A DNA stretch of 64,000 bases from assembly GCF_023638035.1 (NCBI RefSeq), contig NZ_JAKRVX010000006.1, forward strand, positions 62,001 through 126,000. Direction: 5' to 3'. Source of the DNA: Natronocalculus amylovorans (lineage in GTDB: Archaea; Halobacteriota; Halobacteria; Halobacteriales; Haloferacaceae). Below are positions 34,276 through 52,544 of the stretch, piece by piece (within the stretch, counting starts at the first letter, position 1; each line of letters begins with the position of its first letter). The notes under the pieces are model-generated. The model was not told the DNA's origin. It saw nothing but the letters and a program-made list of their open reading frames with translations, and ran no database searches. A program made the position numbers and the translations under genes.

Positions 34276-35301
34276 TTAGGTTGCATCCCCATTCGGTGGT
34301 GTTTGTTCAAGCTCGACCACCCGACGTGTTGTTTCACCAAGCTCAACAAGATGACAGAGCGGATTGCCAGGATATACGACCGGGTTCTCCAGAATACCGA
34401 CAAGAAGCCCGGTGAACGGTGCTTCAACCACGATATTGTCGTTCTTAAACGGATTGGTGATTGTACAGATCCGATCGCCTTCATGGACGAGTGCTCCACG
34501 TTCATAATGCATATCAACGATCCCTCCGACATCGGCACGGATCCACGTCTTTTCGCGATCGCCAGTGATGATTGTTCGCCAGCCAGGCCATCGAACCGCA
34601 GTCTGTTCTAACATCCCATACTCTGCGAAGACGCTTTCAACACCCGCAAGCGCATCATCAATCAGCGTGCGCTGGAACCGGTGTGCTTCCCCCATCTCGA
34701 TCGTAATTGTTGGGACCCCCGCACGGGTTGCTTCCCCACGGAGCGTCCCATCCGGTCCTTCGCTGTCAAGAATAACGTTTGATCCGTATGCCATTGCAAG
34801 ACGGTGTGACTTCACGTCTGCCATGTCTGCGCGCACGTGAAGCATATTGGTTCGCCCACGCGTTGACGTATGGAAATCAAGACCGATATCACATGGTTCA
34901 ATAAAATTCTTGAAAATTCGATATGCCATCCGTTTTGCGCTTGTAGACGCTTCCCTACCAGGGAATGATCGATTCAGGTCCCGATCGTAGATTGGAAGAT
35001 ATCGTTGCTGTGCAAGAAATCCAGGAACATTCAACACAGGCATACAGACAAGCGTTCCTGCAAGGTCAGTGAGGTCCCATTCGTGGGCGACTTCCCTGAC
35101 AACTTCAATGCCATTTAATTCGTCACCGTGTGCTGCTGCAGAAAGAAATGCTGTTGGCCCCGGCTTTTTACCATTGATGATTGTTACTGGAATTCGAACC
35201 GGATCACCAAGATACGTCTCGCTGATTCCGTATCGGATATTCTGTGTTTCGCCCGGAGAAACCTTCCCGCCATTATACGTGAAGGCCCCGTCATCGTTCA
35301 T
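34276..35301 (-). CDS. Aspartoacylase/succinylglutamate desuccinylase-like zinc hydrolase
   Basis: 341 residues of the M14-like AstE/AspA family. Zinc and catalytic motifs: AAAHGDELNGIEVVRE (H..E), the second block YDRDLNRSFPGREAS (binding Asn-Arg), LDFHTSTRGRTNM (His) and TIEMGEAHRFQ (Glu). It hydrolyses an amide bond of an N-acyl amino acid or a glutamate-type conjugate. The C-terminal 80 residues form a biotinyl-like/beta-barrel domain (HEGDRICTITNPF). I choose ATG 35301 because TATA at 35325-35333 gives leaderless spacing. It is divergent from the RimK-retropepsin fusion, suggesting shared use. Confidence 0.9.
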   Translation of the reverse strand: MNDDGAFTYNGGKVSPGETQNIRYGISETYLGDPVRIPVTIINGKKPGPTAFLSAAAHGDELNGIEVVREVAHEWDLTDLAGTLVCMPVLNVPGFLAQQRYLPIYDRDLNRSFPGREASTSAKRMAYRIFKNFIEPCDIGLDFHTSTRGRTNMLHVRADMADVKSHRLAMAYGSNVILDSEGPDGTLRGEATRAGVPTITIEMGEAHRFQRTLIDDALAGVESVFAEYGMLEQTAVRWPGWRTIITGDREKTWIRADVGGIVDMHYERGALVHEGDRICTITNPFKNDNIVVEAPFTGLLVGILENPVVYPGNPLCHLVELGETTRRVVELEQTPPNGDAT

Positions 35302-35324
35302 ACCAAACACACTCGTGGCTCAAT

Positions 35325-35333
35325 CATATAAAC
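35325..35333 (-). promoter_or_regulatory. TATA-like box for the aspartoacylase-like gene
   Basis: GTTTATATG on the minus strand, about 27 nt before the ATG at 35301; identical in form to the box of the zinc-finger gene at 6845-6853. Confidence 0.6.
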
Positions 35334-35426
35334 CCGTCCTCGTGAGTATCAACGTTGGTACGGGGACTGTTCACACTGTGTTCCGAGACCGGCACGCCTA
35401 TCAACGAGTATTTGAACTGTTTGAGT

Positions 35427-36785
35427 ATGTCCGATGGGGAGCAAGTTCGTGTCGGAGTGTTGTCGCTCCACAACAGTAAAGAGACAAAAGCGATTCTTAA
35501 TGCAGTTGAAGATTTAGGGCATGAGCCGTTCTGGTTACGCTCTGAAAACACCGCAATTGATGTCGCAGACAGTAACGTAACGATCGACCCGGATGTTGAT
35601 ATTATTGCGAACCGGTTGCTCCTCTCGAATACCGAAGAGCCTGCCGAGCTGCTTGGGCTTGCAACGACATTCAATCGAATTCGTCCAATGCTCAACGAGC
35701 CGGATGCAGTCCTCACATCGATCCATAAGTTCGCAACCGCAACAACGCTTGCAGACTGGAATATCCGCGTTCCTGACGCATTCTTAGCGCTCTCGAACGA
35801 TCGACTCAATCAAGACAGAGACAAGTTTGGTGACGTTGGCGTTTATAAAACAGCGATCGGAACCCATGGAGGCGGGACGTGGAAAGTGGATCTCACTGAT
35901 CCCGTAAATCCAAAGGTTGGTAACCGACAGGCGTTTTTGCAAGAACTTATCGATCGGGATGATGAGGCACACCGCGACCTCCGTGTCTACATTGTTGGCG
36001 ATGAGATTATTGGCGCGATGTACCGGTACGCGCCGGAAGGCGACTGGCGAACGAACGTTGCGCTTGGTGGCTCTGTCGAGGATGCAACCGATTCGATGCC
36101 TGAAGAGGCTGCTGAAACCGCACTGTATGCTGCGGATGTTCTTGGACTGGATTACGCTGGTGTCGACCTGATTGAAGGGTATGATGGCTGGTACGTCCTT
36201 GAAGTCAACCCAACCGCCGGCTTCAAAGGCCTCTACAAAGCAACTGGAACAAGCCCAGCACCATACATTGCAAAACTTGCGATCGAACAAGCAGATGGTG
36301 AGGTAGACGATGAGCGAGTGGAAGGATTATCAGCAACGCTTGATGACTCAACGCCATCCTGTATGCCACGCGTCGAACCACCAACACTTGCCGATACACC
36401 GCTTATTGGGTACATCGAAGAGGTCCATGTTATCGGAACAAGCGGCTCGAAACAGATTATGGCCAAATCCGATACCGGTGCAACCCGATCAAGCATCGAC
36501 ACCAAACTTGCTGCGGAGATCGGTGCGGGGCCGATCAAAAGCATGACGCGTGTGAAATCTGGCTCTGTGAAGCGTGGTCGATCGCGCCCAGTCATTGATT
36601 TGGTGATCGGAATCGGCGGCAACCAACATACAGTCACTGCAAGCGTCGAAGACCGAAGCCATATGGATTACCCGCTGTTGCTCGGTCGAGATATTCTTGA
36701 ACACTACCGTGTCGATGTGCGAAAGCGTGCAGACGGTGATCACCGTGGTGGCAAGTCCAACAAGGAAGAGTATCTCGAAGAGTAA
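35427..36785 (+). CDS. RimK-type ATP-grasp ligase fused to a retropepsin-like (RimB/COG4067) domain
   Basis: 452 residues from ATG 35427. Residues 1 to ~300 form a RimK/LysX-like ATP-grasp ligase: ANRLLLSNTEEP, KFATATTLADWNIRVPDAFL, the lysine in VYKTAIGTHGGGTWKVDL, and the metal-binding LEVNPTAGFKG. After a linker, residues ~320-430 are an aspartic-protease-like domain with ESDTGA-type motif KSDTGATRSSID (Asp ~349) and the end block YPLLLGRDILEHYRVDVRKR (~416), as in the COG4067/RimB family of 'ATP-dependent zinc proteases'. RimK adds glutamates to S6 in bacteria. Here ligase and a presumed peptide-trimming domain share one chain. It is divergent from the zinc hydrolase. Confidence 0.9.
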   Translation: MSDGEQVRVGVLSLHNSKETKAILNAVEDLGHEPFWLRSENTAIDVADSNVTIDPDVDIIANRLLLSNTEEPAELLGLATTFNRIRPMLNEPDAVLTSIHKFATATTLADWNIRVPDAFLALSNDRLNQDRDKFGDVGVYKTAIGTHGGGTWKVDLTDPVNPKVGNRQAFLQELIDRDDEAHRDLRVYIVGDEIIGAMYRYAPEGDWRTNVALGGSVEDATDSMPEEAAETALYAADVLGLDYAGVDLIEGYDGWYVLEVNPTAGFKGLYKATGTSPAPYIAKLAIEQADGEVDDERVEGLSATLDDSTPSCMPRVEPPTLADTPLIGYIEEVHVIGTSGSKQIMAKSDTGATRSSIDTKLAAEIGAGPIKSMTRVKSGSVKRGRSRPVIDLVIGIGGNQHTVTASVEDRSHMDYPLLLGRDILEHYRVDVRKRADGDHRGGKSNKEEYLEE

Positions 36786-36847
36786 GCGGTGTTAACATAG
36801 ATCAAAAAACCACAACATACATTTGGATGTCTTGTGTTGTGGGCATT

Positions 36848-37060
36848 ATGTTAGCAAACCTCGCGCTTCAAGGCGGTGGAAACGCAATTGCACTGCTGTT
36901 TGGCCTTCTCACCTTTGTTGTGTTCGTTGCGATGGTAGTTTGGACCTATACCGACGCAAAACAGAACAGTTCTCATCCTGCATTCCTCTGGGCCGTAGTC
37001 GTATTTTTCGCCCCCTTCCTTGGGATCATTTTGTATGTGCTTCTCGGTCGAAATCGGTAG
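36848..37060 (+). CDS. PLDc_N-domain membrane protein
   Basis: 70 residues with two membrane helices: ALLFGLLTFVVFVAMVVWTY, then DAKQNSSHPAFLWAVVVFFA and the PF13396-type ending FLGIILYVLLGR. This small domain is normally found ahead of phospholipase D enzymes but stands alone here. Start taken at ATG 36848; a TTG 21 nt upstream is less likely. Confidence 0.75.
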   Translation: MLANLALQGGGNAIALLFGLLTFVVFVAMVVWTYTDAKQNSSHPAFLWAVVVFFAPFLGIILYVLLGRNR

Positions 37061-51639: not shown

Positions 51640-52443
51640 TTACTCGACAGTCCCGACTTTTTTCGACACGTAGCCGAAGATTGATTCATACCCGTTTGGT
51701 GAGAGCAACACCGGATAGAATGATTTTTCGGCGACAATCTCATCGTCATCTGCCCGTGCGAACGCTTCACCAGCGTCGACCTTCGTGAAATTCTCCGCAA
51801 GGACATCGTATCGTTCTGCCTCCGGTTTTGGAATCGGTCCCTCAAGACGGAATACTGAGACCTCATCCCGCTCTGGAGCGTCTAATCGCGTCTCGTCTTT
51901 GTCCTGTCGAAGCACGCCAGTGGCAACAAGGAACGCACGGACAAGCTCGTAGCCATTATCCGCAGCATCAGCAGTTCCCTGTAGACCACACTCAACTTCA
52001 ATCGTGTGTGGGTATTCGATGAGCCGCCCATCCGTGTGTTCGTCAGTTTCGATCACGACATTAACTGGAAGGCGTGGGTAGATCGCTCGAGCAACCTCAT
52101 CGAAGGATTTGATCACGCCGATCGGATCTGCATACGACTGTGTTGAGTGCAACGCAAGTGTTGTACAGTCTTGAATCTCCCTTGCGAGATCGTACGCGAG
52201 TCGATTTTCATGAAGGTCCGCATCAGGATCTCCCGGAAATGCCCGATTCAGATCGGTATCAAGATACCGTACACCCGCTTCAAGTGCCTCTTCGTTGGCA
52301 ATAATAAATTTGACTGGTCGCTCTACGGATGGTTCCTCTGCGAGAAGGCGATTGATTGCGATCGGCCCGCACGGTTCGTCACCGTGAATACCGCCGACAA
52401 CCGCAACCTCGGGTTTCCCGTCCCCGAGTTCGATTACCTGCAT
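51640..52443 (-). CDS. Second aspartoacylase/succinylglutamate desuccinylase-like zinc hydrolase
   Basis: 267 residues from ATG 52443, a shorter relative of the zinc hydrolase at 34276-35301. Motifs: VAVVGGIHGDEPCGPIAINR (H..E), RYLDTDLNRAFPGDPDAD and TIEVECGLQGTAD. It lacks the long C-terminal barrel of the other copy. Predicted to cleave N-acyl-amino acid or a related amide. No ligase gene next to it. Confidence 0.85.
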   Translation of the reverse strand: MQVIELGDGKPEVAVVGGIHGDEPCGPIAINRLLAEEPSVERPVKFIIANEEALEAGVRYLDTDLNRAFPGDPDADLHENRLAYDLAREIQDCTTLALHSTQSYADPIGVIKSFDEVARAIYPRLPVNVVIETDEHTDGRLIEYPHTIEVECGLQGTADAADNGYELVRAFLVATGVLRQDKDETRLDAPERDEVSVFRLEGPIPKPEAERYDVLAENFTKVDAGEAFARADDDEIVAEKSFYPVLLSPNGYESIFGYVSKKVGTVE

Positions 52444-52544
52444 ATACAGATACAAGTAGCCGGTCCATTTGAGCAATCCGGTCTGTGTTTGATTGCGATT
52501 ATAAAAGTGTAAGCTTCGATTTTGCTTCCCACGTACTCTATATA

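Follow-up and report, generated by a model that had tools for sequence, protein, structure and literature searches.

The present analysis concerns a stretch of 64,000 nucleotides from the haloarchaeon Natronocalculus amylovorans (contig NZ_JAKRVX010000006.1, positions 62,001 to 126,000; hereafter, the window), in which two genes are divergently arranged: one encodes a fusion of a RimK-like ATP-grasp ligase with a RimB-like retropepsin domain, and the other a zinc hydrolase of the AstE/AspA type (Table 1). Both open reading frames are uninterrupted, that is, intact, and the promoters of both genes probably lie within the short region that separates them. An upstream TTG codon at position 35355 would extend the fusion to 476 amino acids; because homologues align from the ATG at position 35430, the latter is the most likely start.

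Table 1. Features of the fusion–hydrolase locus, with positions counted from the first nucleotide of the window
Feature	Position	Strand	Size and remarks	Basis
RimK-RimB type fusion gene	35430..36785	+	451 amino acids from ATG	reading frame, profile matches, homologues
AstE/AspA-type zinc hydrolase gene	34276..35310	-	344 amino acids, GTG start	PF24827 match, residue conservation, fold match to DoeB and CphZ
Intergenic region of the two divergent genes	35311..35429	none	119 bp	sequence
ATP-grasp (RimK-like) ligase domain	35727..36260	+		PF08443, conserved residues
Retropepsin (RimB-like) domain	36360..36731	+		PF05618, alignment to bacterial RimB, model and PDB fold search
DTGA with the catalytic aspartate of the retropepsin domain	36471..36482	+		76/77 fusions have DTGA
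Hypervariable C-terminal tail of the fusion	36720..36782	+	ends Glu-Glu (codons 36777-36782)	candidate self-glutamylation acceptor

Ligase and retropepsin domains of the fusion

Profile searches place the two domains in a single reading frame, with the ligase (PF08443, RimK; residues 125-302, E-value 3.4e-23, 82.7 bits against a cut-off of 21) preceding the retropepsin (PF05618, Zn_protease, the RimB/DUF785 family; E-value 1.5e-9, 38.3 bits, over the gathering score of 27). This bears out an earlier, sequence-only reading of the window, which had recognized a RimK ATP-grasp ligase and a DTGA-type retropepsin domain in one protein. Across the fusions of 58 haloarchaeal genomes, the ligase residues K140, D183, R185, R207, E258, and N260 are invariant or nearly so, as are the motifs K140, IGTHG, D183-x-R185, R199-x-A-P-x-x-D-W-R207-T-N, and E258-V-N260 and, in the retropepsin domain, D348-T-G-A. 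RimK holds the glutamate chain through R64, R189, and N262, among other residues (PMC10092738), and these three chain-binding positions align with R62, R185, and N260, all invariant in the fusion.

The retropepsin domain carries, besides DTGA, the motifs K-S-x-S, D408-R-x-H-M, and L-G-R-D, and it keeps every position that is invariant in 19 aligned bacterial RimB proteins (IGxxE, DTGA, S, KSxS, R, R, M, L, GR, and D); a flap segment of about 24 amino acids present in bacterial RimB is absent from the fusion in the same alignment. AlphaFold models cover this C-terminal domain and the hydrolase. The model of the C-terminal domain, built with bacterial RimB sequences (predicted local distance difference test [pLDDT] score of 82), matched RloA2 (9g59), RloA (9g58), the DUF785 protein 2pma, HIV protease, and Ddi1 in a Foldseek search of the PDB, and on the strength of this predicted fold the domain is a retropepsin. 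RimB cuts runs of at least 5 glutamates, not aspartates (PMC11957791), and by analogy the domain of the fusion would be expected to cut polyglutamate.

Two variants of the retropepsin deserve mention in their own right. Plasmid-borne copies of the fusion in Natrononativus (L100) and Natronosalvus (L278) have no DTGA and keep the Glu-Glu C-terminus, and might be ligases devoid of a working protease. Furthermore, Methanosarcinaceae encode a second, shorter PF05618-like family of uncharacterized archaeal retropepsin-like proteins (about 170-200 amino acids, covering profile positions 25-138; L115-L118, L120, L122, L127), with no adjoining RimK within the 1.5-kb flanks.

The AspA-type hydrolase

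The product of the divergent gene matches PF24827 (AstE_AspA_cat) with an E-value of 7.8e-47, in agreement with the sequence-only assignment to the AstE/AspA-type zinc hydrolases, which its fold match to DoeB also upholds. Residues H61-GD-E64, D111-L-N113-R114, H147, R160, and E205 are invariant or nearly so in 53 haloarchaeal hydrolases; they include the HxxE, H, and E used for zinc binding and catalysis, and are common to the hydrolases encoded next to rimK and rimB in bacteria (see below). To these the haloarchaeal protein is 33-36% identical over its full length, and 64 positions are identical in all 23 aligned bacterial homologues. The model (pLDDT 80) is closest in fold to DoeB (2e-22), with CphZ scoring lower (3e-18) and M14 carboxypeptidases also among the matches. 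DoeB/EutE, an N-acetyl-diaminobutyrate deacetylase (TIGR02994, PDB 6twm), is thus the closest solved fold and curated family, but its genomic partners differ and the hydrolase reaches 88.3 bits against the TIGR02994 equivalog, below the cut-off of 402.7. The likeness to CphZ is one of fold; at the sequence level, a profile matches weakly along one part of the protein (3e-4), with no close kinship.

The hydrolase does not correspond to RimA, which in the bacterial rim operon is a phosphodiesterase (PMC10092738, PMC12239564); it is another component. The sequence-only reading had pointed to a second such hydrolase in the window (positions 51640-52476, minus strand). Although the two share a Pfam family, this one matches the hydrolase at 34276 over only 91 amino acids and was rejected as a part of the system. 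Elsewhere in the genome, a second contig carries a paralogue of the hydrolase (58% identical; C15:179997-180539). There is also an ATP-grasp paralogue that stands alone (L251, 6566-7504); it is 42% identical to the ligase domain of the fusion, lacks a retropepsin domain, and ends in SEM. The two may form a second, uncoupled pair.

Fusion and hydrolase are kept together across Halobacteria

The same 292 Halobacteria genomes were searched with both proteins, with presence defined by an E-value below 1e-100. Both genes are found in 268 genomes and neither in 21, which are spread across 13 genera; 3 genomes have the hydrolase without a full fusion, and none has the fusion without the hydrolase. 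The 3 exceptions retain pieces of the fusion gene directly beside that of the hydrolase; hence, the fusion decays first. With the fusion occurring in 268 of the 292 genomes, the arrangement is far beyond chance, and neither of the outcomes that would have spoken against the sequence-only proposal, namely, loss of the catalytic residues in homologues and failure of the two genes to co-occur, was observed.

A full fusion is present in 57 of the fetched regions, and in 49 of these the hydrolase gene falls inside the same interval of about 20 kb, usually in divergent orientation. Such proximity could reflect inherited gene order only, with two functionally unrelated genes held together by synteny, and the surrounding order sdhCDBA-hydrolase-fusion-alkA is itself conserved, so that, given how often the pair is adjacent, some of the co-losses may be single deletions. 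However, both genes are also retained where they are unlinked (e.g., in genomes G074, G195, G259, G289, G123, G130, and G092); in a tree, these unlinked hydrolases intermingle with those encoded next to a fusion and stay apart from a separate paralogue clade. No genome has lost the hydrolase alone. Moreover, plasmids of Halolamina, Halorarius, and Haladaptatus pallidirubidus carry the pair in other contexts, and the same trio of functions forms operons in bacteria and Methanosarcinaceae. We therefore regard mere synteny as a very improbable explanation; the retention of unlinked genes together with the one-sided decay argues for a functional link. Taken with the 21 genomes lacking both genes, these patterns make the hydrolase a real partner of the fusion, as the sequence-only reading had supposed.

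The search for a conserved fourth haloarchaeal component returned only syntenic genes, such as sdh and that of an AlkA-like glycosylase. No RimA EAL-domain phosphodiesterase turned up among the genes conserved around the locus in 60 haloarchaeal regions, although no dedicated EAL profile search was made. Just 3' of the fusion begins an open reading frame (36793-37059, plus strand) for a small membrane protein that looks PLDc_N-like by eye; it was not among the conserved neighbours when the haloarchaeal regions were clustered. On the Haladaptatus pallidirubidus plasmid (L276), the two genes lie near a gene of the glutamate-cysteine ligase family.

The same three functions in bacteria and methanogens

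On plasmids of Vibrio europaeus and Salinivibrio, rimK adjoins a succinylglutamate desuccinylase/aspartoacylase gene and rimB. The Vibrio hydrolase, used as a query against 84,980 species genomes, yielded 80 bacterial loci, in 79 of which rimK is immediately upstream of aspA, with rimB beside them in 70; the operon rimK-aspA-rimB occurs in marine Gammaproteobacteria. A search with PF05618 uncovered 12 loci of Methanosarcinaceae with rimB, rimK, and aspA in a row, and their RimK shares about 70% identity with its Vibrio counterpart. Judging from sequence comparison, the retropepsin and hydrolase of the haloarchaeal pair are clearly homologous to those of this triad. One candidate, Vibrio THAF190c, seemed to be a fusion with the haloarchaeal domain order and was discarded, as its genes are separate and had been read through a stop codon. 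In bacteria and Methanosarcinaceae, RimK proteins that stand alone share a basic C-terminal motif, TRTRGKG, which is strikingly conserved.

The domain names and the recent literature on RimB and RimK (PMC11957791) would suggest a standard RimABK system acting on the ribosomal protein bS6. Yet PF01250, the bS6 profile, found no match in the present genome (G000), 3 other Halobacteria, and 4 Methanosarcinaceae genomes with the system, whereas each of the 40 bacterial triad genomes searched has one. The classical RimK target is thus excluded in the archaea checked, as the sequence-only reading had anticipated in stating that archaea lack this protein. For the archaea tested, modification of bS6 is refuted, and for the locus as a whole we give it next to no credence.

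Genes for MscS channels (26) or for magnesium transporters of the MgtE (21) or CorA (12) families, named from their sequences, lie near 45 of the 80 bacterial loci, often as the next gene. Most hosts of the triad and of the haloarchaeal pair live in the sea, produce methane, or are halophiles, and under osmotic stress the related Rlo system is required (PMC12239564). These observations hint that the system may help to balance ions or osmolarity via glutamate.

A variable tail with a constant glutamate ending

Among 77 non-identical haloarchaeal fusions, 76 end in glutamate and 63 in Glu-Glu, compared with 12.7% and 1.5%, respectively, of 550 other conserved open reading frames from the same regions. 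The tail that follows the retropepsin core, mostly 12 to 24 residues long, is otherwise hypervariable, with pairwise identities of 11-36% at positions -3 to -18. When only tails less than 40% alike are kept, all 29 end in glutamate. Aspartate, which makes up 19% of the tail and is nearly as common there as glutamate, never occupies the last two positions. Plasmid-borne paralogues, 47-66% identical, keep the terminal Glu-Glu even on tails of 6-8 residues, and the close paralogue from the same genome that has no retropepsin domain does not end in glutamate. The formal P values for this ending are too small, as the genomes are related, and with haloarchaeal proteins being acidic as well, the statistics overstate independence; the contrast with neighbouring tail positions, however, lies within the same sequences.

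The established substrate of RimK bears a comparable ending: S6 of Pseudomonas and Escherichia coli terminates in DNADE and GDSEE, respectively (PMC11957791), and bS6 ends in glutamate in 30 of 37 bacteria with the triad, vs 11.3% of 354 neighbouring open reading frames. A first set of 8 genomes had suggested that bS6 is not the target in these bacteria; given the larger set, it remains a plausible one there. By contrast, a glutamate ending is found in none of 12 bacterial RimB-RimK hybrids and none of 16 stand-alone RimK proteins, most of which terminate in TRTRGKG.

The mark could also signify tagging of another protein, whereby the ligase adds glutamates to some haloarchaeal protein ending in glutamate, the retropepsin takes them off again, and the final residue is trimmed by the hydrolase; the tail of the fusion itself would then be a regulatory pseudo-substrate. 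Such a scheme fits the known action of RimK and RimB on bS6 (PMC11957791) and the glutamate mark on bS6 in bacterial triad genomes, a protein that is itself absent here. However, among the conserved families of the fetched regions, which comprise neighbouring genes rather than whole proteomes, none other has the Glu-Glu mark, the next best having it in 25% of members. We consider this explanation rather unlikely, with a real share of the probability nonetheless.

Discussion

Collectively, these results define a conserved functional pair, fusion and hydrolase, with intact active sites and with activities that match those of the rimK-aspA-rimB operon. What the pair acts on can be proposed with less assurance. 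In the reading that we favour, and that we hold as quite possible at just under even confidence, the locus encodes a poly-alpha-glutamate cycle consisting of a ligase, built-in scissors, and a recycling hydrolase. The ATP-grasp domain would use ATP to extend a C-terminal glutamate by one glutamate at a time; the retropepsin part of the fusion would cut the glutamate runs, thereby freeing the chain or limiting its length; and the AspA-type hydrolase would release free glutamate from di-glutamates and other short oligomers, or from a capped remnant, in the way that CphZ breaks down cyanophycin dipeptides. RimB is known to stimulate the synthesis of free poly-alpha-glutamate by RimK (PMC11957791).

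Because bS6 is missing from these archaea and Glu-Glu is maintained at the end of an otherwise variable tail, the C-terminus of the enzyme itself, in cis or from a partner subunit, appears to be the most likely acceptor. The fusion would then be a self-primed polymerase and in principle resemble glycogenin or cyanophycin synthetase. That the fusion extends its own Glu-Glu tail with poly-alpha-glutamate, which the retropepsin releases and the AspA-type partner recycles, is a more specific proposal that we put forward tentatively. The sequence-only suggestion of a target other than S6, perhaps a different protein or a metabolite, holds insofar as bS6 is not the target, but the evidence points to the fusion's own C-terminus or to free polyglutamate instead.

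Several observations weigh against a self-primed polyglutamate cycle. The haloarchaeal ligase domain clusters with MptN and LysX rather than with bacterial RimK (tree support of 95/83), and the amino acid added as well as the acceptor could accordingly differ from those of RimK; R8 of the Pseudomonas RimK chain site is not conserved in the fusion; and the match to TIGR00768 (137.9 bits) is slightly under the cut-off of 143.4, with the orthologue from G036 listed above it. DoeB, a deacetylase, rather than CphZ, is the best match of the hydrolase in both sequence and fold. One Cytophagales hybrid (Persicobacter, L101) ends in a single glutamate, and the conserved terminal glutamate could equally be a pseudo-substrate or docking mark. 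Finally, Methanosarcinaceae likewise have no bS6, yet their RimK has no glutamate-ending tail; therefore, self-priming cannot be general.

Some of these points would suit a pair acting on small molecules, in which the ATP-grasp domain, in the manner of MptN or LysX, joins an amino acid to some metabolite or cofactor, the AspA-type protein is a metabolite deacylase, as its proximity to DoeB in the PDB and NCBIfam might suggest, and the retropepsin trims or regulates. We deem this unlikely. RimB-type retropepsins have so far been reported to cleave polyglutamate (PMC11957791, PMC12239564), and the domain of the fusion keeps all RimB invariants; the ligase motifs WRTN and EVNPTAGFKG are closer to FRSN and EVNSSPGLEG of RimK than to their counterparts in MptN or LysX; and the glutamate-ending tail would be left unexplained. 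The grouping with MptN and LysX puts the ligase domain in a sister branch of the RimK superfamily, whereas the retropepsin and hydrolase are shared with the bacterial triad; haloarchaea may thus have recruited a ligase of their own. By this placement, and with no PF01250 match in the archaea tested, the fusion falls outside the group of bS6-modifying RimK orthologues.

Parts of the system have precedents. RimABK of Pseudomonas (PMC4741518, PMC11957791) likewise combines an alpha-L-glutamate ligase of the ATP-grasp type with a polyglutamate-cutting retropepsin, whose invariant residues are kept here. It differs from the haloarchaeal system, which has the ligase-then-retropepsin fusion, no RimA seen among its conserved neighbours, no bS6, a ligase on the MptN/LysX side, a constant AspA-type partner, and a Glu-Glu tail of its own. 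RimB-RimK hybrids, reported in 2025 from bacteria (DP2392 of Desulfotalea psychrophila, Flavobacteriales, and Rhodobacterales; PMC11957791), also unite ligase and retropepsin in one polypeptide, but with RimB first and with a basic C-terminus in those examined; the same RimB-first order is seen in Persicobacter and in 12 hybrids from Pseudomonadota. RloA-RloB-RloC of Pseudomonas aeruginosa (PMC12239564) again pairs a RimB-like retropepsin with an ATP-grasp protein and is linked to osmotic stress, but its protease is secreted, its genes are separate, and it includes the inactive transglutaminase RloB and no reported AspA-type hydrolase.

Cyanophycin metabolism (CphA1, CphB, and CphZ; PMC9262961, PMC10206079, PMC12661447, PDB 8ein) shows the same division of labour among polymerase, cleavage enzyme, and dipeptide hydrolase, the last of these, CphZ, sharing its fold with the haloarchaeal protein, and cyanophycin synthetase even carries a cutting domain of its own that makes primers (PMC9262961). 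It is not homologous as a system, however, and involves a different polymer, where the haloarchaeal one would be polyglutamate, and other protease families. The published hybrid survey covers bacterial accessions only (PMC11957791), and in the literature that we searched we found neither the reverse domain order, nor near-universality in Halobacteria, nor an AspA-type partner in three lineages, nor the Glu-Glu tail, although part of the neighbourhood may be contained in the work of Iyer et al. (2009) on amidoligase operons. Text searches likewise returned no prokaryotic study joining RimK with an aspartoacylase or succinylglutamate desuccinylase.

Studies of RimK and RimB have treated them as partners in tagging the ribosome, but the pair is also present where there is no ribosomal target. 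Their constant third component is an AspA-type hydrolase, which accompanies them in bacteria and in two groups of archaea that are both without bS6. If the terminal glutamate mark means the same on the fusion as on bS6, the role of RimK-like enzymes in archaea becomes directly testable. Should self-glutamylation prove true, about 92% of Halobacteria genomes would encode a glycogenin-like, self-primed metabolism of an amino-acid polymer, and a cytoplasmic polymer of this kind would have been overlooked in nearly a whole class of archaea.

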